A stretch of 43,150 nucleotides of DNA from a virus: positions 1 to 43,150 of the IMG/VR virus record IMGVR_UViG_3300009032_000005. The stretch is one strand, 5' to 3'. Below, piece by piece: positions 1,551 to 14,234 of the stretch. Every line of letters begins with the position of its first letter. Within the stretch, counting starts at the first letter, position 1. The notes beneath the pieces were generated by a model. The model worked only from the letters and a program-made list of their open reading frames with translations. It was not told the DNA's origin and did no database searches. The translations under genes were made by a program, and so were the position numbers.

Positions 1551-1566
1551 TGTCAATGAATTGACA
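1551..1566. promoter_or_regulatory. Perfect 16-bp operator palindrome
   Basis: TGTCAATGAATTGACA has perfect six-base arms around a four-base centre. It lies 67 bp upstream of the leftward promoter's -35 box. No -10 element is correctly spaced from either arm, so it looks like a protein-binding site and not a promoter. Confidence 0.7.
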
Positions 1567-1649
1567 CCACGATCAGCACGATCAGCAACAAGCAAGCAAC
1601 AAGATAGCTCAATAGACAGCAGACACAGGCACAAGCAAGCAACATCATA

Positions 1650-1732
1650 GGTCCAATTACACTATGTAGGCTACACTGTGTAGGCCCAATTACAAGCCCA
1701 CTTACAACTTACAACTTACAGGCCCAATTACA
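1650..1732. repeat. GGCCCAATTACA direct repeats and ACTTACA tandem triplet
   Basis: Three copies of GG(T/C)CCAATTACA start at 1650, 1683 and 1721. Between the second and third copies, ACTTACA is repeated three times in tandem at 1700-1720. No gene overlaps convincingly. The arrangement resembles iterated protein-binding sites, but the ligand is unknown. Confidence 0.65.
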
Positions 1733-1950
1733 GCGCAAGCGCACACTGACGCATACATTGACTGTATAGGGGAGTGTTTGACGTGCCCCCACCGCTAGCC
1801 CATTACAACGAGGCCCGCCTTTTGGAAACACCGGGGGGTATGCCTCGTGCGTGTATAGGACAGGAATGGCGTTGCGTGCGTGTGCGAGTGGGGAGGCGGG
1901 ATCGACCACCAATCGAGCATCCCATAGCAGCCCATCGCAACGCAAGGGCA

Positions 1951-2013
1951 GCACAAGTAAAGCACAAGCAACGCACAAGTAAGCACCAAGTAAGCAAGCA
2001 TCGTGCAAGCATG
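1951..2013. repeat. Helically phased GCACAAGTAA repeats
   Basis: Six consecutive units of 11, 11, 10, 11, 9 and 11 bp with consensus GCACAAGTAA(A/C). Downstream of the palindrome at 2032 the opposite-strand version of the core appears twice (TTGCTAGTTAC at 2082 and TTGCTAGTTGC at 2094). The same vocabulary makes up the larger array at 3860-4072. The rest of 1733-2450 contains no gene I can support. Confidence 0.55.
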
Positions 2014-2031
2014 GTTACTTGGTATATAGTG

Positions 2032-2047
2032 TGTCAATGGATTGACA
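2032..2047. promoter_or_regulatory. Perfect 16-bp operator palindrome
   Basis: TGTCAATGGATTGACA has perfect arms and is identical over all 16 bases to the site at 9553. It lies in non-coding DNA between phased repeats and the first rightward promoter. Confidence 0.7.
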
Positions 2048-2381
2048 GTGCAAGCATAGTTGCATTGGTAGCATGGATGTATTGCTAGTTACTTTGCTAG
2101 TTGCTTAGTGTGTTGCAATGCAGCATCTTGTGTCGCACCCGTGACCATTTCACAATGCGTATATGCCTGCAATGCTCATACAAGCCCATACAAGCCATGC
2201 ATGAGTGTCGTGTATGATTGCCTATGCCAACACAAAGGGGCTTCAGCGTGCAGCGTAGAGGCGTGCAAGGGCATACGAACAAAGCGGAATGATACGCAAA
2301 CAACGCAACGCATAGCTTAGTGTTAGGTTGCTTGCACAGTTTGCGTTGCACAATGTTTGCTAGCTTGCGTGCTGGATACCG

Positions 2382-2397
2382 TGTCAAGCGATTGACA
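2382..2397. promoter_or_regulatory. Perfect 16-bp operator palindrome
   Basis: TGTCAAGCGATTGACA has perfect arms but a centre (GCGA) unlike the usual T-first centres. It is 55 bp upstream of the -35 box of the promoter at 2452. Confidence 0.7.
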
Positions 2398-2451
2398 GGC
2401 GAGTGAGCAAACGCAGCAAGGGCGCAGCGTGTTTCATGCGAGTGACGACAT

Positions 2452-2480
2452 TTGACAACGTATTGAGATGGTGCTATCAT
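2452..2480 (+). promoter_or_regulatory. Rightward early promoter P1 with embedded operator
   Basis: TTGACA (2452-2457), a 17-base spacer and TATCAT (2475-2480) precede the first rightward gene. Bases 2453-2468, TGACAACGTATTGAGA, are an operator with one change in each arm. The change in the left arm is what creates the -35 consensus. The same 17 bases from TTGACA onward recur in the promoter at 4206. Confidence 0.85.
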
Positions 2481-2526
2481 CTTTAGGTCAGGCAATGACG
2501 CCGAGACAAGAAAGCGAGTAACTCCA

Positions 2527-3543
2527 ATGACCAAAGCTAACATGTCAAACAGCGCGCAAGCTACCTTCAAAGACGCAACTGCGGCTGTGATCGCGCTCTA
2601 TGCCAGCGCTGAAAAAGCATACGCCATCGGATCGGCAACCGTATCGCAGGCTTTTTCCATGCTTTGCGCGACTATCCTGCGTATCCATGCCGATGACGTT
2701 GCCCTCGGCTCCCCTGTCGCATCGTTGCTGGAAATGTTTAGTGAGAAAGAGGCAAATGCGTCTTTCAAGGCATTCAAGGCTGCGACTATCACACGCCTGA
2801 TCGGTGCCCGGCCGCGTGCAGAAGATGGAAACGGCGAAGACACTTTCATCGTCAATGTTTGGCGCGCGCGGTATGCTCGCATTGGTGCGGCCATCTTGCG
2901 CGCTACGGAAATGCACAAGGCAGGCATCCGGCTCAGCCATTACGACGCATCGACGGGCTTCTTTATCGTGCCCTTGTCAATGTTTGACCGCGCGCAAATG
3001 ACCATCCGCGCCAGTGGCAAGAATGCTCGCCCGACCGTCGCCCTGGATAACAAGCGGGAGGCCCCGATTGTTTGGATTGCCAAGCCTGATGCAACGCCTG
3101 ATATCCTCAGCGTAGACAAGCTGATGCCCACAATGGCGAACCTCTTCACGCTGCAAGCGGTGGTAGCGAAGAAGCGGTCTACCGTTAAGCCAACGGCGAC
3201 ACCGGCCAACGCAACGCCTGTCACGCCTGTCACGCCGGCCGCCCCCGGCGCCGCGCCTGGCAGCGTCATCGTGCCCACCGTGGATGGCAGCGCCAATCCT
3301 TCGCCGCATGATCGCGGCGGGGCGGGCTATGAGAACGTCCGGGCTGCAATCATCGCGGTGGGCAACGTGCTGGCGGAGTGGAAGGCAGACAAGAAAGCGG
3401 GCCCGATCACTCGTCAGAACCTCGTCGAGAGTTTCGGAAAGGATGGGTGGGCTGCGTTGCAGGAATTGGCGAAGATCGTGAATGCCTGCAATGCGGCGGA
3501 ACAAGCACCGAAAGAAGTGAGTGCGCCAGCCAAGACGGCGTAA
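2527..3543 (+). CDS. Hypothetical early protein with Pro/Ala/Thr linker
   Basis: A 338-aa protein and the first product of the rightward block, directly behind promoter P1 and ended by its own terminator at 3563. The N-terminal two thirds is Ala-rich and mostly helical by composition. Around residues 215-245 there is a linker rich in Pro, Thr, Ala and Gly (NATPVTPVTPAAPGAAPG), followed by a charged helical C-terminal domain with AAIIAVGNVLAEWKADKK. I do not recognise the family. Its codons end in G or C far more often than those of most neighbours, which suggests high expression or a different origin. The dedicated promoter and terminator fit an abundant early protein. ATG 2527 is used; ATG 2542, five codons in, is possible, and neither has a strong ribosome binding site. 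Confidence 0.8.
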   Translation: MTKANMSNSAQATFKDATAAVIALYASAEKAYAIGSATVSQAFSMLCATILRIHADDVALGSPVASLLEMFSEKEANASFKAFKAATITRLIGARPRAEDGNGEDTFIVNVWRARYARIGAAILRATEMHKAGIRLSHYDASTGFFIVPLSMFDRAQMTIRASGKNARPTVALDNKREAPIVWIAKPDATPDILSVDKLMPTMANLFTLQAVVAKKRSTVKPTATPANATPVTPVTPAAPGAAPGSVIVPTVDGSANPSPHDRGGAGYENVRAAIIAVGNVLAEWKADKKAGPITRQNLVESFGKDGWAALQELAKIVNACNAAEQAPKEVSAPAKTA

Positions 3544-3562
3544 CCTGCACAACGCAAACTCT

Positions 3563-3594
3563 CCCGCACATCGCAAGGTGTGCGGGATTTTTTT
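3563..3594 (+). terminator. Rho-independent terminator
   Basis: CCCGCACA (3563-3570) pairs with TGTGCGGG (3579-3586) around an 8-base loop, followed by A and seven T. It lies 20 bp after the first early gene and makes it a largely separate transcription unit. Confidence 0.9.
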
Positions 3595-3608
3595 AGGAGC
3601 GTCATCCC

Positions 3609-3755
3609 ATGCTGGTTAAAGTTATCTATCGTGTATGGTCGGATAAAGCCGGCTTTGGCAGGCAATACACCGATCACAATTCACGTCGTGAAGCTGACAC
3701 CTTGCGCGATCATTTGGAATTGAATGGCTATATCACCTGGGTGCAAATCATCTAG
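3609..3755 (+). CDS. Small hypothetical protein, 48 aa
   Basis: ATG 3609 follows AGGAG (3595-3599) at a nine-base spacing, and the frame encodes 48 residues starting MLVKVIYRVWSDKAG and ending ITWVQII. The pattern (beta-like start, basic middle, RREADTLRDHLELNGY helix, beta-like end) suggests a compact alpha/beta fold. The family is not recognised. It sits between two intrinsic terminators (3563-3594 and 3781-3813) with no separate promoter visible, so expression probably depends on readthrough of the first terminator. Its ribosome binding site starts one base after the terminator's T-run. The well-placed site and flanking terminators argue that it is real. Confidence 0.7.
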   Translation: MLVKVIYRVWSDKAGFGRQYTDHNSRREADTLRDHLELNGYITWVQII

Positions 3756-3780
3756 CCTGCTACTTCCCGCGCGCAACCTT

Positions 3781-3813
3781 GGCCCCATCGCAGCAATGCG
3801 TTGGGGCTTCTTT
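3781..3813 (+). terminator. Rho-independent terminator with GCAA tetraloop
   Basis: GCCCCA (3782-3787) pairs with TGGGGC (3802-3807). After a T-T mismatch, CGCA pairs with TGCG around a GCAA tetraloop. TTCTTT follows. It closes the transcription unit of the 48-aa gene. Confidence 0.8.
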
Positions 3814-3859
3814 GCGTCTAGCGTCTGGCGCGGGGTGGGCTGGCGCGGGGTGGGCAAGC

Positions 3860-3975
3860 AAGTGCAGCGCAAGTGCAGGCAAGTGCAGCGTAAGTAAGAG
3901 GTAAGTAAGAGGCAAGTGCAGCGCAAGCAAGGGCAAGCAAGTGCAAGTAAGAGGTAAGCAAGTGCAAGTGCTAGC
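3860..3975. repeat. Phased repeat array, AAGTGCAGCGC-type, 11 units
   Basis: Eleven consecutive units start with AAG at 3860, 3871, 3881, 3892, 3903, 3914, 3925, 3935, 3945, 3956 and 3966. All are 10 or 11 bp, mean 10.5, the helical repeat of DNA. Units alternate between AAGTGCAGCGC-like and AAGTAAGAGGT-like forms. The array ends in GCTAGC at 3970-3975, where the pattern flips strand. No gene is supported in 3756-4336; the frames there are repeat artefacts. Confidence 0.8.
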
Positions 3976-4072
3976 TCGTGTCTTGCGTGCTTATGCTCAT
4001 GCCTTGCGTGTGTCGTGCTCGTGCTTGTGTCGTGCCTAGCTCGTGCCTTGTTCGTGCCCGCGTGCTGTCTGG
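3976..4072. repeat. Inverted phased repeat array, TCGTGCCTTGC-type
   Basis: About nine units of 10-11 bp start at 3976, 3987, 3997, 4008, 4019, 4030, 4041, 4052 and 4062, with consensus TCGTGCCTTGC. This is roughly the reverse complement (GCAAGGCACGA) of the units in the preceding array. The two arrays form a large imperfect inverted repeat of about 210 bp centred near 3973. Origin function or a folded transcript is possible but unproved. Confidence 0.75.
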
Positions 4073-4205
4073 TCAAAGGGCAGCACGCGCGCTTGTTTGG
4101 CACAACTCTTGTGGGCGCGGTAAGCATTGACAGACGTTTCATCAGGCGCTTTGGGCTGTATATGGGGCACTGTTTACGTGTGTTGTTAGCTGTATGTTAA
4201 TAGAC

Positions 4206-4234
4206 TTGACAACGTATTGAGAGTGTGCTACTAT
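4206..4234 (+). promoter_or_regulatory. Rightward early promoter P2 with embedded operator
   Basis: TTGACA (4206-4211), 17 bases, then TACTAT (4229-4234). Bases 4207-4222 repeat the degenerate operator TGACAACGTATTGAGA of P1, and the two promoters also share GTGCTA and ATCTT near the -10 box. It drives the small-gene cluster from 4337. Confidence 0.85.
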
Positions 4235-4251
4235 CTTATTGGATAAGCGAG

Positions 4252-4302
4252 AAGGAGTTAACCCGTGTAAGCAAGTAACCAACACACGGACTACCGCGTA
4301 GT
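4252..4302 (+). promoter_or_regulatory. Structured leader with orphan ribosome binding site and GTG-TAA start-stop
   Basis: AAGGAG (4252-4257) is followed, seven bases later, by GTG TAA (4265-4270), a start codon directly followed by a stop. CCGTGT (4263-4268) can pair with ACACGG (4284-4289), and ACTAC (4290-4294) with GTAGT (4298-4302). The true gene start has its own site further down at 4325. This could be an attenuator or ribosome standby element. Confidence 0.4.
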
Positions 4303-4308
4303 AATGTC

Positions 4309-4324
4309 TGTCAATCAATTGACG
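4309..4324. promoter_or_regulatory. Operator palindrome in a 5' leader
   Basis: TGTCAATCAATTGACG has one mismatch in the right arm. It lies in the leader of P2, immediately before the AAGGA ribosome binding site (4325-4329) of the next gene. In RNA it could also form a short hairpin. Confidence 0.6.
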
Positions 4325-4336
4325 AAGGAATGTCTC

Positions 4337-4729
4337 ATGTCCCAGGATATCATCAAGCTCATCTATCCCGTTGTGCAGACGCCGTTCTCTGCCGCTGTGA
4401 TGGTCGCGCATCGCCTCGCACAAGAGACTGGCGCCGCTGCTGGTCCCTACCGCTGGGTGGTTACGCTGTCCACTCCCACCGTTCCGCTGAAAATCGCTGC
4501 CATCCGTGCCATCCGTGCGCTTGGTTGCGTGCTTGTGGGCTCCGCTCTCCCGCTGTTGGATGCGAAGCAGATTGTCGAAGGCACCCGTGTGCTTGTGCTC
4601 ACGAGCATGGCAGCGTTCACGGCACTGCTGCTCATCATGCAAGAGCACAACCAGGAGTATCGTCCCGCTGAGTTGTGGCACATCAAGGACATTCAGTTGC
4701 ACGCTAACAGCAACATGACGATTGTTTAG
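4337..4729 (+). CDS. Hypothetical early protein, 130 aa
   Basis: Starts MSQDIIKLIYPVVQTPF. ATG 4337 is chosen because AAGGA lies seven bases upstream; an ATG at 4304 would place the operator palindrome inside the gene and has no such site. The C-terminal half has a hydrophobic stretch (VLVLTSMAAFTALLLI) followed by an acidic/amide-rich tail, so a membrane helix or buried core helix is possible. No known family is recognised. It is the first gene after promoter P2 and shares the C-ending codon preference of the first early gene, which suggests strong expression. Another palindrome follows three bases after its stop. Confidence 0.75.
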   Translation: MSQDIIKLIYPVVQTPFSAAVMVAHRLAQETGAAAGPYRWVVTLSTPTVPLKIAAIRAIRALGCVLVGSALPLLDAKQIVEGTRVLVLTSMAAFTALLLIMQEHNQEYRPAELWHIKDIQLHANSNMTIV

Positions 4730-4731
4730 GC

Positions 4732-4747
4732 TGTCAATGCGTTGACA
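4732..4747. promoter_or_regulatory. Perfect 16-bp operator palindrome
   Basis: TGTCAATGCGTTGACA occupies most of the 30-bp gap between two genes, three bases after a stop codon and next to the AAGG of the following gene. Bound protein here would act as a roadblock inside the operon. Confidence 0.7.
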
Positions 4748-4759
4748 AGGTATGAGGCA

Positions 4760-4954
4760 ATGAACAAGTCATCGAGGGCTCCCCACTGGTCAGACTTTGA
4801 CAAGTGGAAGCATCAAGTCAACCAGGCTGTGCATTCGTCGTGCGGCCTGGAGTGTGATGATCTGCCAGACTATGCGTATCGTCAAGCGTTTGACGACAAG
4901 GTGCCTGTGAGTGTGGTAGCTCGTCGTGTAATTGCTAGGGCAAAAGGAGGATGA
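4760..4954 (+). CDS. Small conserved-type phage protein, 64 aa
   Basis: MNKSSRAPHWSDFDKWKHQ..., with the block CGLECDDLPDYAYRQAFDD followed by PVSVVARRVIARAK. This G-x-x-x-DDLPD-x-x-YR-x-x-(F/Y)DD pattern resembles small proteins I recall from many podoviruses (DUF5419-like, from memory; not checked). Function is unknown. ATG 4760 is preferred over the upstream TTG 4742 because AAGG at 4747-4750 is nine bases away and the TTG is part of the palindrome. Its stop overlaps the next start in an ATGA arrangement, so the two are translationally coupled. Confidence 0.75.
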   Translation: MNKSSRAPHWSDFDKWKHQVNQAVHSSCGLECDDLPDYAYRQAFDDKVPVSVVARRVIARAKGG

Positions 4955-5178
4955 AAAAAAATCGAGCGGAGGTTGTCAAGGTCCAGCAATCCATGGGGCG
5001 CCCGATCACGATCTTGATCTATGATGAAGCACGCACGTTGGTGGTGGAGAGAACGCCGACACCGCATGAGCGCACTCTGTTGAACAAAAATCCCAGAGTG
5101 TTCTGCTACGCTAATCGCAACCGTTCAAACGATTGGTCACTTCTAAGGGTGGCGACGTTTCAAGGTTTCGGTAAGTAG
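4951..5178 (+). CDS. Hypothetical small protein, 75 aa
   Basis: The product starts MKKNRAEVVKVQQSMGRP and contains ITILIYDEARTLVVERT and later RVFCYANRNRSNDW, a beta-rich pattern with several basic residues. No family is recognised. The ATG overlaps the previous stop. A strong AAAGGAGG abuts it with essentially no spacer, which is too close for ideal initiation. The real start could use the more distal AAAGG part of the site, or be the in-frame ATG near 4993, which would leave about 61 residues. It belongs to the operon driven from P2. Confidence 0.6.
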   Translation: MKKNRAEVVKVQQSMGRPITILIYDEARTLVVERTPTPHERTLLNKNPRVFCYANRNRSNDWSLLRVATFQGFGK

Positions 5179-5220
5179 TGTCAATCGTTAACTAAACAAT
5201 GTGTTCACAAGGAGACTGTC

Positions 5221-5619
5221 ATGCTGAGTCGTCAAGAGTTCTTCGAAACCACGATTGATCGGCTGATCGAACAGCGCACGCGGGCTATGCTTGAGAGCGG
5301 GGTGTGTGCATATCGAGTAACATCCATTAAATACGAACGGTTGGTCGTGAAGAAGTGCGCTATCGGGCATCACATCCCGGATGATGAATACACTAATGCT
5401 ATGGAAGGCATGACCATCGAGCACATGTCAACGGGTCGCATAGGCGATGTCTATGTTCCTTCGATCATCTTGTATGTTGCACACTTCGGCTTGCCTTTCA
5501 TGGAAGCACTGCAACGGTTGCACGATGCGGCTACGGAGGAGTTCATCGGACCATTGTTCACACGCGAACTTGCGTGTTTCGCTGAAACGTGGAACTTGCA
5601 GGGGTATGACAGCAAATGA
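5221..5619 (+). CDS. Conserved hypothetical protein with KCA-G-IPD-MEG signature
   Basis: A 132-aa protein with a clear AAGGAG seven bases before ATG 5221. Residues near the middle read KKCAIGHHIPDDEYTNAMEG. This matches a signature I know from many uncharacterised phage and plasmid proteins (KCA-x-G-x-x-IPD-x-x-Y-x-x-x-MEG), which also share the later LQRLHD helix seen here. The N-terminal helix (FFETTIDRLIEQRTRAML) and the YR residues after it also fit. Function is unknown in that family. The start follows a degenerate half palindrome at 5179-5194 (TGTCAATCGTTAAC...). It overlaps the next gene by four bases. Confidence 0.8.
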   Translation: MLSRQEFFETTIDRLIEQRTRAMLESGVCAYRVTSIKYERLVVKKCAIGHHIPDDEYTNAMEGMTIEHMSTGRIGDVYVPSIILYVAHFGLPFMEALQRLHDAATEEFIGPLFTRELACFAETWNLQGYDSK

Positions 5620-5846
5620 TGGATGAAGATGAGAAAGTGGCACTGCGGTTTTTAGCTACGGTGCCTGAGTTTCGCAGCTATGACATGGTGCGCGTGTGGG
5701 TCAAGAAACAAATCCCCAAGGAAACTTACATGACGCACGCCAATGTATCATTTGCGTTGTGGAACTTGGTTGTTGAGCGGCGACGGGAAGCAAGTCGTGC
5801 GCGCATGAACCGCCCATGGACTACGGTATTCCATCTACAAAAATGA
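5616..5846 (+). CDS. Hypothetical small protein, 76 aa
   Basis: Starts MMDEDEKVALRFLATVPEF and ends RPWTTVFHLQK. It is a charged helical protein with a basic segment VVERRREASRARMNR near the C-terminus. ATG 5616 overlaps the previous stop (ATGA), which implies translational coupling. No family is recognised. It is the last gene before a 228-bp gap containing an operator (5914) and promoter P3 (6012), so it ends the P2 operon. No intrinsic terminator is visible after it. Confidence 0.65.
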   Translation: MMDEDEKVALRFLATVPEFRSYDMVRVWVKKQIPKETYMTHANVSFALWNLVVERRREASRARMNRPWTTVFHLQK

Positions 5847-5913
5847 GTGCGTGCCTACATCCCGACCCCTGATACCCGTAATTACGTGCAAGAAAAGGCC
5901 GCTATCCTAGGTC

Positions 5914-5929
5914 TGTCAATGGGTTGACG
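5914..5929. promoter_or_regulatory. Operator palindrome with extended arms
   Basis: TGTCAATGGGTTGACG has one arm mismatch. The symmetry extends three bases further out (GTC on the left, GAC on the right), giving nine-base arms with a single T-G pair. It lies 82 bp upstream of promoter P3, whose own embedded site has the same centre TGGG. Confidence 0.65.
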
Positions 5930-6011
5930 GACTCAATAAGGGGCTCAGGGGTGCTTTTGCGGGTCTGTTGGCGTGTATGCAATAGGCTATGATACTGTTG
6001 TGTGAACCAAC

Positions 6012-6040
6012 TTGACAATGGGTTGAAACAAGACTACAAT
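6012..6040 (+). promoter_or_regulatory. Rightward promoter P3 with embedded operator
   Basis: TTGACA (6012-6017), 17 bases, TACAAT (6035-6040), then ATCTTA-like sequence as in P2. Bases 6013-6028, TGACAATGGGTTGAAA, equal the operator at 5914 apart from one change per arm. It drives genes from 6075. Confidence 0.85.
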
Positions 6041-6074
6041 CTTACTACTACCCCAACACCTTAAGGAGATGGTA

Positions 6075-6449
6075 ATGGACTTCATCGAGAGCGTGGCTAG
6101 CGCAATTGAGTCAATCACTGACGATCAATTGTCGTTGTTGGCGTCTATGGTGGTGAAGGAGAAGTTACGTCGGAGAAGGGGTTCACACGGGAGGTCCGTG
6201 TGGATCATTACCATTGAGTGGACTGCGCTCGGTTCTCTGCGTTATGTAGGGCTGTTGACTGCTGAAGAACTGGAGAAACTTCAGTTGAGAGCATTCAGCA
6301 ATGATGGTGTGATTTCTTCTACGTGGGTTCAAGGAACAATCGAAGACATGCCAGCCGCGGACACACGGTTGCTAATGCTCTTTTCAAATACAGCCGAAGT
6401 CTTCCCGGCGCAGTTGAGTGACACTGTAGTATCATCGGAGGATAACTGA
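6075..6449 (+). CDS. Hypothetical protein, 124 aa
   Basis: Starts MDFIESVASAIESITDDQ. ATG 6075 is chosen because AAGGAG (6063-6068) is six bases upstream, whereas the in-frame ATG 6069 directly abuts that site. The N-terminus is helical and acidic and is followed by a basic KEKLRRRRGSHGR patch. A beta-like core follows (WIITIEWTALGSLRYVG) and then a TAEELEKLQLRAF helix. No family is recognised. It is the first gene of the P3 operon, whose members mostly overlap or nearly overlap by a few bases up to the DUF932 gene. Confidence 0.7.
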   Translation: MDFIESVASAIESITDDQLSLLASMVVKEKLRRRRGSHGRSVWIITIEWTALGSLRYVGLLTAEELEKLQLRAFSNDGVISSTWVQGTIEDMPAADTRLLMLFSNTAEVFPAQLSDTVVSSEDN

Positions 6450-6450
6450 C

Positions 6451-7286: not shown

Positions 7287-7549
7287 CTGTTACTTGTCGC
7301 ACCTGCAAACACTTTGCGCCTTGGCACAGGAAAACATCTACTATGGGAACGTGTCGTTTCCCTCTGCCCATGTGGTTTAACAACGTCTGGGGAGTGGAGC
7401 GGGTGAATGAATACCTTCTCGGCTCGACTCAACACCACTGCGCTGTATGGGAGCAGATACCCGCGTCAGTGATTGACACGCCGGAGTCAGCACCCGTGGC
7501 AGAGGCAGTGGCAGTGGTGCAGCACGGCCCGAAGGATGAGCGTCCATGA
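7283..7549 (+). CDS. Small zinc-ribbon-like Cys protein, 88 aa
   Basis: MTVTCRTCKHFAPWHRK..., with later GTCRFPLPMW and HHCAVWEQ. Two Cys in a C-x-x-C knuckle plus two later Cys (and adjacent His) suggest a structural zinc site. I know this arrangement (TCRTCKH..., C-x-x-PLP, C-x-x-WE) from small uncharacterised phage proteins. The C-terminal third is Ala/Val/Pro-rich and probably disordered. ATG 7283 is chosen because GGAGG is eight bases upstream; the ATG at 7268 lies before that site. The next gene starts four bases before its stop. Confidence 0.7.
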   Translation: MTVTCRTCKHFAPWHRKTSTMGTCRFPLPMWFNNVWGVERVNEYLLGSTQHHCAVWEQIPASVIDTPESAPVAEAVAVVQHGPKDERP

Positions 7550-7767
7550 CACAGTTCCTCACAAGTGAGCAGGTTCACAAGCGGCTGTGTTTGTTTGTGG
7601 ATGGTTATCCTACGCAGGTTGACGCTGCAAAGGCCCTGAAAGTTTCTAGAACACACTTGAACATGCTCTTGAACAAGAAGCGTTCTATTGGACCTGGAGT
7701 AATTGCCGAGCTAGGCTTGGTTCCGGTGTGCATCACGAAGGCACTGGCGCTGTCTCTTGGCAAATGA
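7546..7767 (+). CDS. Small helix-turn-helix DNA-binding protein
   Basis: A 73-aa protein with AAGGA nine bases before ATG 7546. The core TQVDAAKALKVSRTHLNMLL followed by NKKRSIGPGVIAELGL is a Cro/XRE-type helix-turn-helix: AAKALKVS is the first helix, the S-R-T-H-L segment the recognition helix, and IGP-x-V the usual third-helix region of small phage HTH proteins. It could bind DNA as a dimer and is one of two candidates (with the ribbon-helix-helix protein at 15037) for the protein that recognises the 16-bp palindromes. That link is inference. The stop overlaps the HNH gene. Confidence 0.8.
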   Translation: MTQFLTSEQVHKRLCLFVDGYPTQVDAAKALKVSRTHLNMLLNKKRSIGPGVIAELGLVPVCITKALALSLGK

Positions 7768-8230
7768 ACGAACAGATGTGTTTGCACACATTGATATGAC
7801 CGGCGGCACTGAGAAGTGTTGGCCATGGAAAGGAACGTGGGGTGGTAGAGACAGAGACAAGCGGCCGTATTTTCACTGCGAGGGAGCGCGATGGTTGGCT
7901 TACCGCTTGGTTTTCGTCCTTGCGACTGGCACAACCTTGTCTACCGAGCAACACATCTTGCATGATTGCGACGCAGGGAGTTGGCCTACAGGGTGCTGTA
8001 ACCCTAAACATCTCCGGGCAAGCAATAATCGCACCAACGTGGATGATCGGCTACTACGCGAGCGGCATGGATTGTCGCACGCAGTTGTCAAAAACATTCG
8101 AAGACTCTTACAGGCAGGAAAACAGACACAAGCAGACATAGCTGAGCTTTACGGCATCTCTCGTGAAGCTGTGAGTGCCATTGCGACACAACGAACATAC
8201 GCACATGTGAAGGATGATCTCAATGAATGA
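7757..8230 (+). CDS. HNH endonuclease with C-terminal HTH
   Basis: The 157-aa product carries the layout of phage HNH_3-type endonucleases. CWPWKG comes near the N-terminus, then ARWLAYRLVFVLATG, then ILHDCDAG with the metal/catalytic His region, and CCNPKHLRASNNRTNVDD completing the ββα-metal fold. The C-terminal 45 residues (KQTQADIAELYGISREAVSAI) form an HTH like those used for target recognition. Such genes are often free-standing homing endonucleases that insert between phage genes. The start is unsettled: TTG 7757, GTG 7778 or ATG 7796, none with a strong ribosome binding site. Confidence 0.8.
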   Translation: MANERTDVFAHIDMTGGTEKCWPWKGTWGGRDRDKRPYFHCEGARWLAYRLVFVLATGTTLSTEQHILHDCDAGSWPTGCCNPKHLRASNNRTNVDDRLLRERHGLSHAVVKNIRRLLQAGKQTQADIAELYGISREAVSAIATQRTYAHVKDDLNE

Positions 8231-8603: not shown

Positions 8604-8615
8604 GGAGCTATGATT

Positions 8616-9470
8616 ATGTTCAAGACAACCACTCCCGATGTAGACATCTTCTTCCCCGTGGTAGAGCGCAAGTGCGCCTGGACTGATGTTCGGGGCGTTA
8701 ATCATCCCGTGCCCAACCAAAAGGTGTTGGTGCGTCCGATCATGCACAACACTGTTGTTCATGGTCAACCGCTTGCTGTTGTTGGCAAAGGTTACTCGCT
8801 CATATCTATGTATGAGGTAGTGACGGCGTTGGAGCAAGAAATGCAGACGCTCCTAACGCCCCATGACTTGGAAGCGTGTTTTGTGAAGGACTCTGTTGCT
8901 CGGCATGGTCAAACCTGTATGCGTGAGTATCACTTCCCTCACAATGCACGAACCATCGGTCGTCATGGTTCTGTGGGATTGCGTATTGCTGTCGTCAATG
9001 GGTATGGTGGTTCGTCAGTGAAGATCATTGGTGGTGCCATTGACTTCATGTGCACGAACGGACTTATCACAGGCACGTTTGATACGTCATACCATCGGCA
9101 TACCAGCGGCCTGAAACTTGAGCATGTCACAGCTAAACTTTCGCAGTGCATCAATGGCTTTAACGACGGTGTTGTGCGCTGGAGAAGTTGGTCACGCAAA
9201 GAGATGCCACATGAGCAAGCAATGGGTTTGCTGCGTGAGATTGCTACTTCTCCGCGCATGTTTGAACACTTGTCCGATCAATACTTGCGTGAGGTTCCTG
9301 TTCGTGGGTCGAACCTATGGAGCGTTGTCTCTGCGCTGACCTATTTTGCATCCCACGGTGTCGTCAAGAAGACAGACAACGATACGGAGGCATTGACGCG
9401 GCTTAGTCGCGGCTTGTTCATCGACAAAGTGCTTCGCAGTGCTACGTTTCATGCGTTGGAGAATGCGTAA
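8616..9470 (+). CDS. DUF932 domain protein
   Basis: A 284-aa protein starting MFKTTTPDVDIFFP. The segment IDFMCTNGLITGTFD followed by YHRHTSGLK is the hallmark of DUF932, a family of phage and plasmid proteins of unknown role that often lie in replication or early modules; GKGYSLISMYEVVTALEQ and LRIAVVNGYGG fit the rest of the domain. The length is close to the family's usual range. ATG 8616 is preferred because AAGGAG is eight bases upstream; ATG 8610 would be only two bases away. It ends the P3 operon, with promoter P4 beginning seven bases after its stop. Confidence 0.85.
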   Translation: MFKTTTPDVDIFFPVVERKCAWTDVRGVNHPVPNQKVLVRPIMHNTVVHGQPLAVVGKGYSLISMYEVVTALEQEMQTLLTPHDLEACFVKDSVARHGQTCMREYHFPHNARTIGRHGSVGLRIAVVNGYGGSSVKIIGGAIDFMCTNGLITGTFDTSYHRHTSGLKLEHVTAKLSQCINGFNDGVVRWRSWSRKEMPHEQAMGLLREIATSPRMFEHLSDQYLREVPVRGSNLWSVVSALTYFASHGVVKKTDNDTEALTRLSRGLFIDKVLRSATFHALENA

Positions 9471-9476
9471 GCCGAC

Positions 9477-9505
9477 TTGACAATGATAGTTAGATAGGCT
9501 ATACT
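9477..9505 (+). promoter_or_regulatory. Rightward promoter P4
   Basis: TTGACA (9477-9482), 17 bases, TATACT (9500-9505), preceded by GGC as in P1-P2 style GCTA context. It starts with TTGACAATG like P3, but the right operator arm is not preserved. It would drive the replication genes from 9639. Confidence 0.8.
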
Positions 9506-9525
9506 TAACTTTGTTGATGAGAATG

Positions 9526-9593
9526 CAACAGGTGCTAACACAAGCTGCGGGCTGTCAATGGATTGACACAGCTTGGTGAGTTGGTTCCTGTTG
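9526..9593 (+). promoter_or_regulatory. Nested inverted repeats around a perfect operator in the P4 leader
   Basis: Three arms nest symmetrically: CAACAGG (9526-9532) with CCTGTTG (9587-9593), CAAGCT (9541-9546) with AGCTTG (9570-9575), and the perfect palindrome TGTCAATGGATTGACA at 9553-9568. The whole lies in the expected 5' leader of P4 mRNA (start near 9512), so it may act as DNA operator, RNA hairpin or both. Confidence 0.65.
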
Positions 9594-9638
9594 TGTTCTT
9601 GCTGCATTAACATACACTAACAACGAGAGGAACATACC

Positions 9639-10085
9639 GTGACTGCGAAACGATTGAACGCCTTGAGCAATGCCTTGAGCAAGATCGGCAAGACGAATGG
9701 CACAGCATGTCCTGAAACAATAAGTAATGTGGGGCCTGCTGTCTATGAGTTGGCTATCTGTCAGCAGTTGAAAAAGATGATCGAAGCACGGACGGACGCC
9801 GCAATCAAAGTGCTCATTGATATGAGGGTGATGTTCGACCACAAGTTGTTTCCTGTCGAGCCAAAATACAATGCCACGCTGTTTACTTCTGATGTGGCGT
9901 CGCTCTTTCTCACGACGCGCACACCATCGACAAGGTTTGACAATGCGTTGTTTGTCGCTAAAGTCCGCCTTCTGTTGCCTGCATCGAAGCATGATGCGTT
10001 AACGGCGTTGGTGTCGGAATGCACCAAAGTCAACGCGGTGCCTCATGTATTCACTGCAAGCATTGTTACAGGAGAACAGGAGTGA
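9639..10085 (+). CDS. Hypothetical protein, 148 aa, first gene of P4 operon
   Basis: Starts at GTG 9639 with AGAGG about eight bases upstream. The product begins MTAKRLNALSNALSKIG and contains a helical VYELAICQQLKKMIEARTD segment and a beta-like FVAKVRLLLPA region. No family is recognised. It precedes a run of short helical proteins and then the recombination/replication enzymes, so an accessory role in DNA metabolism is possible by context only. Neighbouring starts are tightly packed, indicating one operon. Confidence 0.7.
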   Translation: MTAKRLNALSNALSKIGKTNGTACPETISNVGPAVYELAICQQLKKMIEARTDAAIKVLIDMRVMFDHKLFPVEPKYNATLFTSDVASLFLTTRTPSTRFDNALFVAKVRLLLPASKHDALTALVSECTKVNAVPHVFTASIVTGEQE

Positions 10086-10088
10086 CGG

Positions 10089-10328
10089 ATGGGCGACGTG
10101 ATCCAGTTGACGAGCATTGCACCAAAGCAAGAAAGGTTTCGCATTAACAATCTGCATGATGTGAAGCTGACATTCCTACCCGGCGCACCTGCAAATGCAC
10201 AGTGGCAGTGGGAGGTAACTGTGTGGCAATCCTACTACTATTCAGGCACAACGAACAACATTGCTAACGCGCGTTCACATGCAAGGGCGGTCGTTGACAA
10301 GATGGTAGGAGAGGCTGTCAATGAGTGA
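10089..10328 (+). CDS. Hypothetical protein, 79 aa
   Basis: Starts MGDVIQLTSIAPKQERF with AGGAG six bases before ATG 10089. The middle is aromatic (WQWEVTVWQSYYYSG) and the C-terminus is an amphipathic helix (ARSHARAVVDKMVGEA). No family is recognised. The stop lies eight bases inside the next gene, and the sequence at that overlap (TGTCAATGAGTGACC) begins like a palindrome half-site, although the right arm is not preserved. Confidence 0.65.
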   Translation: MGDVIQLTSIAPKQERFRINNLHDVKLTFLPGAPANAQWQWEVTVWQSYYYSGTTNNIANARSHARAVVDKMVGEAVNE

Positions 10329-10737
10329 CCATATACCTGGCGACTATATGGATGAACACGCTCAATTGATGTTTGACTTTGCGAAAGAAGAACGCGCGCT
10401 TGTGGAGGAGGAACAAGCCGCGCAACTCCAAACACAGATAACAACGGCTGATCCTCGTGACATCATCACGCGACGTAGCATTGCAGACCTTTCCTGCGAT
10501 GAGCTAGAGGAACAAGTTGAGGCTATCCGCGTGCGTCGTATGACGTATGTGGAAAAGCTGCGTAAGAAGACCGCTACTCGTGGCACAGCAACGGAAATGG
10601 CTTACTCAATCAAACGAGAAGGTGAGGTAGGTAAAATCCTGAAACGCCTAAGTAAGTTATCGAAGGACAGTGAAGCAATCATTGCCAGTATCCAAGCCAT
10701 TCGTGCTATGGATATGCAGAACGGAGACGATGAATGA
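10321..10737 (+). CDS. Coiled-coil hypothetical protein, 138 aa
   Basis: Starts MSDHIPGDYMDEHAQLMF with AGGAGAGG upstream. Long charged stretches (EERALVEEEQAAQLQ, CDELEEQVEAIRVRRM, EKLRKK, VGKILKRLSKLSKDSE) predict an extended coiled coil. There are no catalytic motifs. It overlaps the next gene by four bases (ATGA). A structural or partner-binding role alongside the following coiled-coil protein is possible. The family is not recognised. Confidence 0.7.
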   Translation: MSDHIPGDYMDEHAQLMFDFAKEERALVEEEQAAQLQTQITTADPRDIITRRSIADLSCDELEEQVEAIRVRRMTYVEKLRKKTATRGTATEMAYSIKREGEVGKILKRLSKLSKDSEAIIASIQAIRAMDMQNGDDE

Positions 10738-10997
10738 GACAGAATGAATATGAGTTGCGTTGTCGGCAAGATGGCTTCGAGAAAGCTACAAAGCGTGCGC
10801 TCATTGAGTTGATGGGTGAACACGCAACAACACGACAACACGTTCACAATCTTGCTGCACAGATGGTTGACATGGCAACGCTGCTAACGAACCTGTCTGC
10901 TGTAGCTGCACAAACTCTCGGTGCCATCAAAGATGTGCAGCGCGTTTTGAACCGCTCAGAGGAGCTTGATAATGAAGGTGTCCGTAACGGCGATTGA
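10734..10997 (+). CDS. Small helical protein, 87 aa
   Basis: Starts MRQNEYELRCRQDGFEKATK, with GGAG six bases upstream. It is helical throughout; VHNLAAQMVDMATLL and VAAQTLGAIKDVQRVL have coiled-coil-like spacing. It is coupled to the previous gene by ATGA and overlaps the nuclease gene by 26 bases. That overlap holds the nuclease ribosome binding site. Function is unknown. Confidence 0.65.
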   Translation: MRQNEYELRCRQDGFEKATKRALIELMGEHATTRQHVHNLAAQMVDMATLLTNLSAVAAQTLGAIKDVQRVLNRSEELDNEGVRNGD

Positions 10998-12096
10998 GTT
11001 CACTAAAACCACACCTGAACAACTCACATGGCCGACCTTCGACAACACTCGTCTTGTTGCCTATAACACATGCCCTGTATGGGGCACGGTGCGCTATGGA
11101 CACCACAAGATTATCAGTGAGCGTAATCCTCTGTCGTCCGAAGGTCGTGCAATGCCTCTTGAAACGGGCTCAGCTATGCACGAAGTCTTTGCTTGGGTGC
11201 GTATGTGTCAGTTGTTTCACCAGACAGAGGATAAGACACTCGCGGCTGCGTTGTTCAAGCGTGTTGGTCAGTCATTGTTTGGTGAAGACCGTCTGACAGT
11301 CATCTTGTCAAACATTGACGCGAGCTTTAGCCATGATCGTGTCTTGTATGCTAAGCAAGGCGCAGGCAATGTGCTTGAGACAAGCGGCTTCTATGATAAT
11401 CCCAACGACAAACGACGCACACTCTCGAACATGGAGTTGGCTGCGTATGCCTACATCGACAAGTGGAGTTGGGCTAATCTTATCTGGGTGCAGGGTGAAG
11501 GAGTAACTGCGTTTGTGGGCATTGAGTTGCCCTTTGATATTGCTGTTGTAGTTCAATACACAGATGAAGGAGGCAAAGAGTGTGAGTTGAAGGCGCGCTT
11601 TACAGGACGCATTGACGGTATCCATTACCGTGCAGATAATCCGAGCGTGCTTATCATTGGAGAGAACAAGACCGCCGCACGACTTGATGATGCGTGGACA
11701 CAATCGTTCAATCTTGCCACGCAAGTCACGGGCTACTGCATAGCGGGGATGGTGCTAGCACAAACACCCATTGATCGTGCTTACATCTTTGGGTTGGCTA
11801 TCCCGTTGCCTAAGGGGTATGACTATGGTGGAGTCATATCTCAGCGCGTGTTGCGAAAGGATTACCACTTTACTCAGTGGGCGCATTGGTTCACTGAAAC
11901 TGCTGTCAATGCTTTGACAGACATGGCCAAGCCTCTGGAAGCGACACGACACACGCATTCATGCAGTCGTTACTTTCGTCCGTGCCCTCTCGTGCCTCTT
12001 TGTGACAATCCACTGCCTGAACAACAGCGTATCTTTGATGACATGCCTGTTGATGAGTGGTCCCCTCTCGACAAACCAGGAGCTAACAATGCGTGA
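10972..12096 (+). CDS. PD-(D/E)XK nuclease, Cas4/RecB-like, with Fe-S cysteines
   Basis: A 374-aa protein. The core GRIDGI followed by VLIIGENKTA supplies the D...E-x-K residues of the PD-(D/E)XK nuclease fold, and YNTCPVWG near residue 34 plus Cys 331, 338 and 344 (CSRYFRPCPLVPLC) give the one-plus-three cysteine pattern of Cas4/AddB-type Fe-S nucleases. The likely role is 5'-3' exonuclease or end processing for recombination with the Sak4-like ATPase and putative SSB downstream. ATG 10972 has AGGAG seven bases upstream; TTG 10966 is less likely. A perfect operator palindrome lies inside the coding sequence at 11904. Confidence 0.85.
   Translation: MKVSVTAIEFTKTTPEQLTWPTFDNTRLVAYNTCPVWGTVRYGHHKIISERNPLSSEGRAMPLETGSAMHEVFAWVRMCQLFHQTEDKTLAAALFKRVGQSLFGEDRLTVILSNIDASFSHDRVLYAKQGAGNVLETSGFYDNPNDKRRTLSNMELAAYAYIDKWSWANLIWVQGEGVTAFVGIELPFDIAVVVQYTDEGGKECELKARFTGRIDGIHYRADNPSVLIIGENKTAARLDDAWTQSFNLATQVTGYCIAGMVLAQTPIDRAYIFGLAIPLPKGYDYGGVISQRVLRKDYHFTQWAHWFTETAVNALTDMAKPLEATRHTHSCSRYFRPCPLVPLCDNPLPEQQRIFDDMPVDEWSPLDKPGANNA
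11904..11919. promoter_or_regulatory. Perfect operator palindrome inside a coding sequence
   Basis: TGTCAATGCTTTGACA has perfect arms and encodes part of VNALTD in the nuclease gene. It is the only perfect copy I saw within a gene body, so it may be coincidental or an internal roadblock. Confidence 0.45.
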
Positions 12097-12508
12097 AATT
12101 GAAACGTCCACGTCCCTCAGGCAAGCTGTGCGTGCGCTGGAAGACATCAATCCTCTGGAGTGGCAAGACGCTATTGATCTGTTGTCAAGGCAGTGTCATG
12201 CACAGTCGTTTGTGGCAGGCTGGTGGTTCGCGGGTGTCCCGCGGAACCTCGGTGAGTTGATTGCACTCATTCACAGTGAAGTAAGTGAAGCCTTGGAAGG
12301 GGCTCGCAAGGATAAGATGGACGAGCACTTGCCTGAGTTCACATCGCTGGAAGTGGAGCTTGCTGACACACTTGTGCGTATCTTTGACTTGGCTGGTGCG
12401 GGTAATCTGCGCCTTGGACAAGCCTTTGCACAGAAGATGGCATACAATGCTACTCGCCCCGATCACCGATTGGAAAATCGCGCACGTCCCGGAGGTAAAC
12501 AGTTCTAG
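12089..12508 (+). CDS. MazG-like nucleotide pyrophosphohydrolase
   Basis: A 139-aa protein with the all-alpha NTP pyrophosphohydrolase pattern: ELIALIHSEVSEALEGAR supplies the first Glu pair, HLPEFTSLEVELADTLVRIFD the second metal-binding E-x-x-D set, followed by FAQKMAYNATRPDH. Members of this family hydrolyse (d)NTPs to monophosphates and may clean the nucleotide pool or lower alarmone in infected cells; the exact substrate here is unknown. ATG 12089 has AGGAG seven bases upstream and overlaps the nuclease stop by eight bases. It sits among replication genes. Confidence 0.85.
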   Translation: MREIETSTSLRQAVRALEDINPLEWQDAIDLLSRQCHAQSFVAGWWFAGVPRNLGELIALIHSEVSEALEGARKDKMDEHLPEFTSLEVELADTLVRIFDLAGAGNLRLGQAFAQKMAYNATRPDHRLENRARPGGKQF

Positions 12509-12516
12509 CTGTGGAA

Positions 12517-13332
12517 ATGAAGCTGGGTAACTTTGTTGTTGCTGCACCATCCTTTGAACAGACACGCATGACTTTGTTCTTGTGGGGGCCAAGTGGTGCG
12601 GGCAAAACAACGCTCGCTTCTACAGCCCCAGGCAAGAAGTTGTGGATATTGTTTGATCCTGATGGTGCTGCTTCACTCATTGGGCGTGATGATATCTTGG
12701 TGCTTGATCTGTCAGGCGAACGACATGGCATTGTCAGTAGGTTCAATGACGATGATCCGTTTCGTTTGACGGCGTTCTTGAAAGAGCATCCTGACATTGA
12801 GACAATTGTGTTTGACAGTGCTACAGCGTTTGCACAACTGTCTCTCGAACATGCTGTGTCAGAGATCAAGAAGCGGTTTCCGACAACACAAGTATCCTTG
12901 GAAGACCCCGCACCAAAAGGATATGGGCACAGGAACACGCTTGTTTTGCGTGCTATTACTTCGCTTATGCGGTTGACAAAGTTACACAACCTGCACTATA
13001 TTATCATCACCCATGAGGATACAGCCACTACCGATGAGAAAGGTAATGTGTTGTTTATCACTATGGCACTTGGTGGTAAGATACCAAACAACGTCGGGCT
13101 ACAGTTGTCCGAGATTTGGTGGATGAACAGTAACGATAAGGGGCAGCGCATGATTGCTGTCAGACCTTGCCGCACACGTAAACCCATGAAGTCTCGCATG
13201 TTCGATCAGACAGGTGCGCCGGAGTTTGTTTGGCACTACAACGCAAACGAATGGAAAGGTGATGGCATTAAAGAGTGGTTTGAGGCGTGGAAAGAAAGGG
13301 GAGGTAAAAAACTCTCCATCCCTACCAAGTAA
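12517..13332 (+). CDS. RecA-fold ATPase, Sak4/AAA_24-like recombinase
   Basis: A 271-aa protein with Walker A GPSGAGKTT at about residues 24-32 and Walker B TIVFDSAT near residue 90; DPDG after the second strand and IIITHED further on match the AAA_24 'phage nucleotide-binding protein' group that includes the Sak4 single-strand annealing proteins. The neighbours support this: an exonuclease two genes upstream and a putative ssDNA-binding protein just downstream, as in phage recombination cassettes. The start is uncertain: ATG 12517 or GTG 12511, with the nearest GGAGG about 16 bases upstream of the latter. Confidence 0.85.
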   Translation: MKLGNFVVAAPSFEQTRMTLFLWGPSGAGKTTLASTAPGKKLWILFDPDGAASLIGRDDILVLDLSGERHGIVSRFNDDDPFRLTAFLKEHPDIETIVFDSATAFAQLSLEHAVSEIKKRFPTTQVSLEDPAPKGYGHRNTLVLRAITSLMRLTKLHNLHYIIITHEDTATTDEKGNVLFITMALGGKIPNNVGLQLSEIWWMNSNDKGQRMIAVRPCRTRKPMKSRMFDQTGAPEFVWHYNANEWKGDGIKEWFEAWKERGGKKLSIPTK

Positions 13333-13338
13333 CGAGCC

Positions 13339-13354
13339 TGTCAATGGCTTGACA
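13339..13354. promoter_or_regulatory. Perfect 16-bp operator palindrome
   Basis: TGTCAATGGCTTGACA lies six bases after the ATPase stop and upstream of the next gene. No -10 element is spaced correctly from it. Confidence 0.7.
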
Positions 13355-13450
13355 GAGATGCAGGTGCGCGAGGTTGCCGCTCAGCCTGTGAAGACTGCCG
13401 CAACCGAGACTACGCCTATCAACGCACAACGCAATGGAGCAAGTGCAACT

Positions 13451-13864
13451 ATGACCAATCTCCTACATTTCGCGCAGTCTCTTGCCGAAGCCGAGAAGCC
13501 GCAGCCCCTTCCTCCTGGTGAATACACGGCGGAAATTCGTGGGGCCGAGAACAAGGTCAGTGATCGCACAGGGAACGATTACATCTCCTTGACGATGCAC
13601 GTCAGCGCGGATGAATACCCGGCAGATTATACCGACGGTGATCCTGATGGCACCATCTTGTCATACAACCGTCTGTCGCCCAAAGCTACGCCACGCAACC
13701 GCTATGCCCTGCGTCAGTTCATTGAAGCCGTTGGCATGGTGCCTGGCACGGAGCTTGACCTGAATGACCTGTTGGGCAAGGCGGTGACTGTGCGCGTGCG
13801 GGTCACGAAGTATGAAGGGGATGACCGCAGCGAAATCTCTGCGATTATCTTCAACGCAGGCTGA
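13451..13864 (+). CDS. Putative ssDNA-binding protein, DUF669-like
   Basis: A 137-aa product: MTNLLHFAQSLAEAEK, then PLPPGEYTAEIRGAENK, RTGNDYISLTMHVSADE, NRLSPKATPRNRYALRQF and DLLGKAVTVRVRVTKYEGD. The order (PGEY, strand, GN-x-x-I/Y strand, L...F helix, G-K-x-V-x-V-x-V) resembles DUF669, an OB-fold-type family found next to Sak4-like ATPases and thought to bind ssDNA. Codons are GC-rich, as expected of an abundant protein. ATG 13451 gives a clean domain; ATG 13358 would add 31 low-complexity residues and abuts the palindrome. Neither has an ideal ribosome binding site. Confidence 0.7.
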   Translation: MTNLLHFAQSLAEAEKPQPLPPGEYTAEIRGAENKVSDRTGNDYISLTMHVSADEYPADYTDGDPDGTILSYNRLSPKATPRNRYALRQFIEAVGMVPGTELDLNDLLGKAVTVRVRVTKYEGDDRSEISAIIFNAG

Positions 13865-13869
13865 TTGTT

Positions 13870-13897
13870 GTGTTGGGGAGTTGACTACTCCCCACAC
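13870..13897 (+). other. Stem-loop after the putative SSB gene
   Basis: GTGTTGGGGAG (13870-13880) pairs with CTCCCCACAC (13888-13897), leaving one bulged T and a 7-base loop. No T-run follows, so it is probably an mRNA 3'-end or processing element and not a full terminator. Confidence 0.5.
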
Positions 13898-13960
13898 TTC
13901 CGCTATCTTGCTTATGCCAACTGAGGCAGTGTGCTTAATCAAATGAGAAGGTCAACTAAC

Positions 13961-14215
13961 ATGTCTGAGACTTCCCCCCGTGGTCGCAAGCCCCGTGATC
14001 CCAATGGCCCCAAGCAGACCCGCGCACCGGCAAAGCCGCGTGTAGTGTTCGTCGTTGCTCAAATCATCGACGACACTGGCGCCGTTCGAACGGACCTTGG
14101 CAAAGCCAACGTGCGCGTGGTGGCGTTCGAGAAGAACGCTGATGCAGCCCTTGCGACGCTGGAAACCACTCCTGGCGCGTTCTACTTGCGCGGCACGGTC
14201 CCTGCGGGTCGCTAA
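13961..14215 (+). CDS. Hypothetical basic protein, 84 aa
   Basis: Starts MSETSPRGRKPRDPNGPKQT, a Pro/Arg/Lys-rich, probably disordered tail. A compact domain follows: PRVVFVVAQIIDDTGAVRTD, VRVVAFEKNADAALATLE and AFYLRGTVPAGR. ATG 13961 has AAGG about ten bases upstream. Its GC-rich, C-ending codons and the strong terminator after it mark it as a probably abundant product. The basic tail could bind nucleic acid. No family is recognised. Confidence 0.75.
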   Translation: MSETSPRGRKPRDPNGPKQTRAPAKPRVVFVVAQIIDDTGAVRTDLGKANVRVVAFEKNADAALATLETTPGAFYLRGTVPAGR

Positions 14216-14218
14216 TCC

Positions 14219-14234
14219 CGTCAATCGTTTGACA
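14219..14234. promoter_or_regulatory. Operator palindrome before a terminator
   Basis: CGTCAATCGTTTGACA has one mismatch in the left arm. It lies three bases after a stop codon and 17 bp before the terminator at 14252. It is the rightmost good copy in the early block. Confidence 0.6.

Follow-up and report, generated by a model that had tools for sequence, protein, structure and literature searches.

In phiC31, a temperate phage of Streptomyces, conserved inverted repeats near the early promoters serve as multiple symmetric repressor sites; a homologue of its long repressor was not found here, although no search aimed at it was made. Among the described systems, the nearest precedent in form for the element analyzed here is the 17-base-pair (bp) palindrome TGTTCGG-N3-CCGAACA of the Cluster O (Corndog) mycobacteriophage, which is present in 34 copies in the absence of an integrase and has an unexplained function (PMC4351075). 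The stoperators of Cluster A phages (L5, Bxb1) are asymmetric 13-mers that are bound by a monomer, are oriented with transcription and belong to temperate phages (PMC6550527, PMC9283540), whereas the SPBRE elements of SPbeta were predicted to be repressor sites ~24 years before the identification of their binder, MrpR, a repressor with the tyrosine recombinase fold (PMC10516654). Here we analyze the dispersed palindrome TGTCAA-N4-TTGACA in an uncultured bacterial virus (IMG/VR virus record IMGVR_UViG_3300009032_000005; hereafter, the window, i.e. the entire stretch of 43,150 nucleotides). The system of sites is real and non-random and probably has a regulatory role: the palindromes form two spacer classes, are placed at promoters and in intergenic regions, and are replaced by different palindromes in the relatives of this virus.

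The window contains seven copies of TGTCAA-N4-TTGACA with perfect arms and four with one mismatch, i.e. 11 compared with the 0.17 expected from dinucleotide shuffles; when up to two mismatches are allowed, there are 19 matches vs 3.4 in the shuffles. Ten of the 11 sites had been listed in a first-pass annotation made from the sequence alone, and their coordinates and mismatch numbers all check out, as do the T in the first position of the centre in nine of the ten, the intergenic location of nine (the exception, at 11904, lies within a nuclease-like gene) and the lack of N4 copies with perfect arms in the late block. The eleventh copy, at 20297, has one mismatch and is located inside a primase/helicase-like gene. 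The same annotation considered a chance origin unlikely, and the shuffles, together with the counts at other spacings (~1.2), exclude it.

When the half-site GTCA is paired with its complement at each possible spacing, a second class of sites emerges that the first-pass annotation overlooked. The N6 spacing, which corresponds to the class above, and the N5 spacing (GTCA-N5-TGAC) are represented by 13 copies each, compared with ~1.2 for the other spacings. Nine of the 13 N6 sites are intergenic; 12 of the 13 N5 sites are intragenic, including those in pol and in the late block (29811, 32510 and 38068). The N5 class is not a coding artefact because none of the spacings in the same codon phase (N2, N8, N11 and N14) is enriched in the window. 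The same one-base doublet is found, with other half-sites, in two relatives, G029 (TAAC-N3, 9 copies; TAAC-N4, 14 copies) and G033 (TGAC-N3, 9 copies; TGAC-N4, 23 copies). When the window, G029 and G033 are pooled, 25 of the 50 long-spacer sites are intergenic vs 2 of the 31 short-spacer sites (Fisher p 3e-5); the short-spacer class is placed like random positions, without a special preference for genes. Together, the two classes amount to about two dozen palindromes in the window, at early promoters as well as in other intergenic and intragenic locations.

A sigma70 scan of the window yields five promoters with 11 of the 12 consensus bases and one, P4206, with 10 of 12. A strong palindrome lies near P4206 and near four of the five strongest promoters (P2452, P6012, P9477 and P1484), at most ~110 bp from the start point and with 67–102 bp between the −35 box and the site; the remaining strong promoter, at 12973, is intragenic and has no palindrome nearby. 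Additionally, TTGACA occurs 35 times on the plus strand, and A-N4-TTGA comes directly after it in only three cases, which correspond to the −35 boxes of P2452, P4206 and P6012. Therefore, in three early promoters, a degenerate copy of the site overlies the −35 box; a 16-base stretch is common to two of the three, which may reflect duplication.

The relatives, gathered via a terminase search and a PolA alignment and referred to by G or L labels, comprise some 160 contigs with ~42–59% identity and conserved gene order. No close relative of the window was found in IMG/VR by pol, by the early gene gp2527 or by the helix-turn-helix (HTH) protein encoded at 7546; the window motif is absent from the ~160 relatives except for single imperfect copies, and a raw scan of IMG/VR for TGTCAA-N4-TTGACA gave, among the matches listed, nothing beyond single hits. 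An unbiased palindrome count shows that about a dozen relatives or groups of relatives each possess their own, different dispersed palindrome (Table 1), whereas codon-sized shuffles contain no such palindromes. The motif-by-genome table is nearly diagonal, that is, each palindrome is almost limited to its own phage or group, with the exception of CAACA-N2-TGTTG, which also matches the G006/G035 site because it is part of that site. By the same test, no palindromes are detectable in G001–G005, G036–G038, G041, G042 and G044, and these palindrome-free relatives show no convincing asymmetric dispersed repeat as a replacement. The Desulfofustis phage LS06 (L383), a more remote one, has a longer palindrome, close to GCTATGTCCCAA-N-TTGGGACATAGC, in about nine copies, mainly intergenic (249, 2251, 7688, 15474, 23059, 29970, 37113, 41281 and 42977). 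Upstream of the gp31070 homologue in G030, G031 and G039, a TTATACGTATAA-type site is centred in a larger inverted repeat, and in other relatives this location is occupied by a different hairpin.

The preference for intergenic locations extends to the clade: in the 17 palindrome-bearing records, 109 of the 250 sites are intergenic, compared with the expectation of 24.4. Among the 23 strong intergenic promoters, nine have a site whose centre falls +35 to +65 from the inferred start, compared with 1.06 for randomly drawn intergenic positions (p < 1/3000), and six have a site at −115 to −50 (1.9 expected, p 0.009). In a tiny hold-out set, one of two promoters, in phage L395 with its new palindrome, has a site at +55. 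The association of sites with promoters within 110 bp, taken alone, is modest (14 vs 7.9, p 0.03), and it is the +35 to +65 clustering that stands out. The promoter that precedes the gp9639 family and heads the replication operon has 11–12 of the 12 consensus bases also in several relatives without palindromes, but its leader contains the phage's own palindrome in the bearers alone (at +49 in the window, +50 in G035, +44 in G028, +56 in G029, +80 in G026 and +138 in G027).

Table 1. Palindromic sites, sigma70-like promoters and candidate binding proteins in the window, and dispersed palindromes of its relatives
Feature	Record	Positions	Strand	Context
Palindrome, perfect arms	window	1551..1566		divergent early/late gap; centre ~110 bp upstream of leftward P1484 start point
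Palindrome, perfect arms	window	2032..2047		intergenic
Palindrome, perfect arms	window	2382..2397		intergenic; centre ~98 bp upstream of P2452 start point
Palindrome, 1 mismatch	window	4309..4324		gp4337 leader; centre +76 from P4206
Palindrome, perfect arms	window	4732..4747		intergenic gap of 31 bp
GTCAA-N4-TTGAC core intact, outer bases altered	window	4880..4895		within gp4760
Palindrome, 1 mismatch	window	5914..5929		intergenic; ~98 bp upstream of P6012 −35 box
Palindrome, perfect arms	window	9553..9568		leader, about +48 to +49 from P9477
Palindrome, perfect arms	window	11904..11919		within nuclease-like gene
Palindrome, perfect arms	window	13339..13354		directly after Sak4-like gene
Palindrome, 1 mismatch	window	14219..14234		after gp13961
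Palindrome, 1 mismatch	window	20297..20312		primase/helicase-like gene
Sigma70-like promoter P1484, 11/12	window	1456..1484	−	toward minus-strand genes
Sigma70-like promoter P2452, 11/12, TTGACA-17-TATCAT	window	2452..2480	+	upstream of gp2527
Degenerate copy, 2 mismatches, TTGACAACGTATTGAG	window	2453..2468	+	on P2452 −35 box
Promoter P4206, 10/12	window	4206..4234	+	degenerate site 4207–4222 overlaps −35
Promoter P6012, 11/12	window	6012..6040	+	degenerate site 6013–6028 overlaps −35
Promoter P9477, 11/12	window	9477..9505	+	head of replication operon (gp9639)
Short-spacer site GTCAGGCAATGAC	window	2487..2499		inferred P2452 start point
Short-spacer site	window	2976..2988		within gp2527
Short-spacer site	window	4789..4801		within gp4760
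Short-spacer site	window	6110..6122		within gp6075; ~70 bp downstream of P6012 start point
Short-spacer site	window	7465..7477		coding
Short-spacer site	window	10317..10329		gp10089/gp10321 junction
Short-spacer site	window	11307..11319		coding
Short-spacer site, TGTCAA-N3-TTGACA	window	17043..17055		deoxynucleoside monophosphate (dNMP) kinase gene
Short-spacer site	window	17779..17791		pol gene
Short-spacer site	window	19549..19561		pol gene
Short-spacer site	window	29811..29823		late block
Short-spacer site	window	32510..32522		late block
Short-spacer site	window	38068..38080		terminase gene
Cro-like HTH protein, 73 amino acids	window	7546..7767	+	candidate binder; HTH_3, E values 8.7e-4 and 7e-5, below curated cut-off
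Ribbon-helix-helix (RHH) protein, 55 amino acids (NikA/TacA-like)	window	15037..15204	+	second candidate binder
Palindrome TCAACACGTGTTGA	G006, G012, G015, G035
Palindrome TTTCCACA-N-TGTGGAAA	G007, G028
Palindrome ATCTACA-N2-TGTAGAT	G018, G027
Palindrome ACTTACYGCRGTAAGT	G026
Palindrome TTATACGTATAA	G030, G031, G039, G040
Palindrome CAACA-N2-TGTTG	G034, G032, G043
Palindrome TAACA-N2-TGTTA	G029
Palindrome TGACA-N2-TGTCA	G033
Palindrome TAKCCAA-N6-TTGGMTA	G045
Palindrome TTACA-N-TGTAA	L395			hold-out set
Palindrome TGTT-N8-AACA	L245			hold-out set
Palindrome GTCCCAA-N-TTGGGAC	Desulfofustis phage LS06			more remote

The two ends of the window overlap by 181 bp (1–181 = 42970–43150, with two mismatches), and the record is thus a genome of 42,969 bp that is circular or circularly permuted. 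The plus-strand genes between ~2.5 and 20.9 kb encode, among others, HNH, Sak4-like, helicase, dNMP kinase, PolA-like and primase proteins, and the minus-strand block includes the terminase and lysis genes. Since the genome is circular, the palindromes are found around and beyond the intergenic region that separates the divergent early and late blocks, a large gap at ~0.9–2.5 kb. This 1.6-kb gap (900–2520) is mainly noncoding, abounds in short CAGCA/CAACA repeats and includes three strong sites. A strong intrinsic terminator (3562–3594; 11-bp stem and T run) is located immediately 3′ of gp2527, which is thus apparently transcribed as a separate unit. Among 32 records, an integrase is present only in the palindrome-free G001 (G001:C1:5014-5454, L204; a tyrosine integrase); G001, which lacks dispersed palindromes, is among the closest relatives of the window. 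A search of GTDB genomes with the capsid found no host.

By the architecture of the sites (half-sites ~10 bp apart, with a variable 4-bp centre), the HTH protein encoded at 7546 would be the first choice for the binder in the window. No relatives of this protein were found, and a recognizable homologue of either the HTH or the RHH protein is missing from most of the palindrome-bearing relatives; the RHH protein, present only in G000, G035 and G038, with a G035-like copy in L139, was rejected as a general binder. The clade-wide HNH-HTH protein (7757–8230 in the window) is an unlikely binder as well, its recognition helix being nearly identical with and without palindromes (G007 vs G009). This HNH endonuclease with a C-terminal HTH is kept in most of the clade, a degree of conservation not expected of a casual homing gene. 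Behind a strong promoter, the window (2527–3543) encodes an early protein of unrecognized fold within the range of 300–400 amino acids, with counterparts in G018, G033, G034 and G030; the early-protein families of different clade members are mostly without detectable mutual homology. As a regulator, this first-gene family was discarded: the counterparts have no homology to gp2527, and the predicted structures are unhelpful (predicted local distance difference test score, pLDDT, of 36 for gp2527 and 68 for the G034 family, with no fold match). No convincing regulator emerged from the clustering of gene presence and absence against the palindromes, and almost no DNA-binding families were detected when 114 accessory proteins of ten palindrome bearers were compared with Pfam and PHROGs. 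In one relative, these accessory proteins include an Acb2/Tad1-hairpin protein, a possible factor against the cyclic-oligonucleotide-based antiphage signaling system (CBASS).

The explanation we favor, with slightly better than even confidence, is that the palindromes are operators and roadblocks of a dimeric, sequence-specific protein, most likely phage-encoded, that brings about stoperator-like silencing and diversifies in specificity across the clade. Such a protein would bind the palindromes and repress or throttle the early promoters that depend on the host sigma70, acting through the degenerate sites on the −35 box, the strong leader sites (~+40 to +76) and the strong sites ~100 bp upstream. 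Bound to the other palindromes, between or within genes, the protein might serve as a roadblock to elongation. The two spacer lengths would be tolerated, or separately used, by one protein, and the specificity of the protein would shift between lineages together with the entire set of sites, which is absent in many members. Silencing of this kind could shut off the early genes, exclude related phages or maintain a plasmid-like carrier state.

Several observations weigh against this explanation. The promoters are matches to the sigma70 consensus rather than mapped starts, most of the palindromes lie away from recognizable promoters, and the gene calls for the relatives come from a simple gene finder of our own. 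The +35 to +65 interval was picked after the data had been seen, and the hold-out set comprises two promoters only. Positional conservation by gene family looked striking at first but failed the permutation control and was dropped as evidence: phages with different motifs have sites before the same gene families in 36 cases vs 35.5 by permutation, so that gene-level conservation does not rise above chance. The first-pass annotation had named, as a refutation, sites that shift in position among relatives although the genes are conserved; applied loosely, to the distant relatives that alone were found, this criterion meets a replaced sequence and a per-gene-family position not beyond chance. No DNA-binding gene was found that the bearers share and the palindrome-free relatives lack. 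Finally, the context of lysogeny is missing, as the window has no match to the integrase (PF00589), serine recombinase (PF00239), S24 repressor (PF00717) or ParA (PF13614) profiles; a prophage repressor of the classical type therefore does not suggest itself, and the sites may serve early shut-off, superinfection exclusion or an extrachromosomal carrier state.

Alternatively, the phages might use the sites of a regulator of their hosts, LexA-like or not, the palindromes differing because the hosts differ. LexA boxes vary between phyla, the hosts of the relatives could well be different, and a common phage-encoded regulator was not found; however, up to 21–34 copies per phage, many of them intragenic, are beyond the usual borrowing of a host regulon, and the TGT-x-GA half-site style seen across the clade is expected of one homologous binder and not of host proteins without kinship, so we judge this origin unlikely. 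It is also improbable that two systems are superimposed, with the long-spacer sites being operators of one protein and the short-spacer sites, randomly placed in coding sequence, serving another protein or process. The sharp difference in intergenic placement between the two classes is what one would expect in that case, but in three phages whose half-sites differ, the two classes use a common half-site and their spacers are exactly one base apart; with only a single spacing in other phages, spacer tolerance of one protein is the simpler account.

A role in partition, segregation or DNA organization (parS-like or nucleoid-like sites) instead of transcription control appears quite unlikely. The palindromes are dispersed, some (G034, G033, G029 and G035) contain a CACGTG core, and CACGTG resembles part of the parS core; furthermore, the authors of the Cluster O study argue against a promoter link for the majority of their sites (PMC4351075). 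Against these parallels stand the strong promoter geometry and intergenic enrichment, and the lack of an above-cut-off match to the ParA profile in 18 palindrome-bearing records. RNA-level elements, such as leader terminators or hairpins, are very improbable: the leaders do contain perfect inverted repeats, but the hairpins, at −4 to −10 kcal/mol, are no better than those in shuffles, no T tracts follow the sites, and the centres of 0–2 bases in several relatives cannot loop out fully. For chance or a composition artefact, which could invoke only that TTGACA is common as a −35 box, the probability is negligible because both the shuffles and the other spacings yield about one copy.

Dispersed palindromes in integrase-free phages have been, until now, an unexplained curiosity (Cluster O). 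The present large clade amounts to a series of natural replicates that carry different palindromes, along with palindrome-free members and a conserved promoter with or without a site, which make the function of the sites directly testable by reporter and pull-down assays, and it suggests immunity-like specificity groups among phages that are not obviously temperate. A bolder version of the favored explanation, which we put forward tentatively and do not expect to hold in full, is that an apparently non-integrating environmental clade possesses an optional, rapidly re-specified silencing system, in which one dimeric phage protein of an unrecognized kind would act on tens of lineage-specific palindromes, with promoter and leader sites at one spacer and intragenic roadblocks one base shorter, providing early shut-off and superinfection immunity without lysogeny.

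Compared with known systems, the sites are unlike the operators of lambdoid CI/Cro in being dispersed rather than clustered beside an S24 repressor gene (PF00717 is negative), and unlike parS of ParABS in that the ParA-like ATPase (PF13614) is negative in the window. The SPbeta elements are likewise short repeats in intergenic regions of a phage, but SPbeta is a prophage and its elements are bound by MrpR, whereas the window has no match to the Phage_integrase profile; given how late the SPbeta binder was found, caution is due over the missing binder here. With Cluster A stoperators, which belong to temperate phages with an integrase or parA and whose repressor is a two-domain monomer that blocks elongation, the window shares the number of sites (20–30 genome-wide in Cluster A; 11 strong and 13 short-spacer candidate sites here), the location of some at promoters (L5 Pleft) and of others in intergenic regions, and sequences specific to the phage lineage; an operator overlapping an early promoter, as in Cluster A, is represented by the degenerate −35 copies at predicted promoters. 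The resemblance to stoperators noted in the first-pass annotation holds for this placement, both in the window and, with other sequences, in the clade, but not for the asymmetry of the site or for a lysogeny repressor proper, given that no integrase, serine recombinase, S24 or ParA match exists. The window sites are 12-base perfect dyads with only a weak centre bias; they are not Cluster A stoperators by definition but may work similarly. Like the Cluster O palindromes, they are numerous symmetric sites of 16–17 bp, both intergenic and intragenic, denser in one arm of a genome without an integrase. The two differ in sequence and phage type, TGTTCGG-N3-CCGAACA being unmatched in the window and in every relative scanned, and the Cluster O sites are mostly off promoters, whereas those described here lie at stereotyped distances from strong sigma70 promoters, change in sequence from lineage to lineage and include a short-spacer class. 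As far as we have searched, the clade-wide replacement of palindromes, the promoter geometry and the short-spacer class are new.

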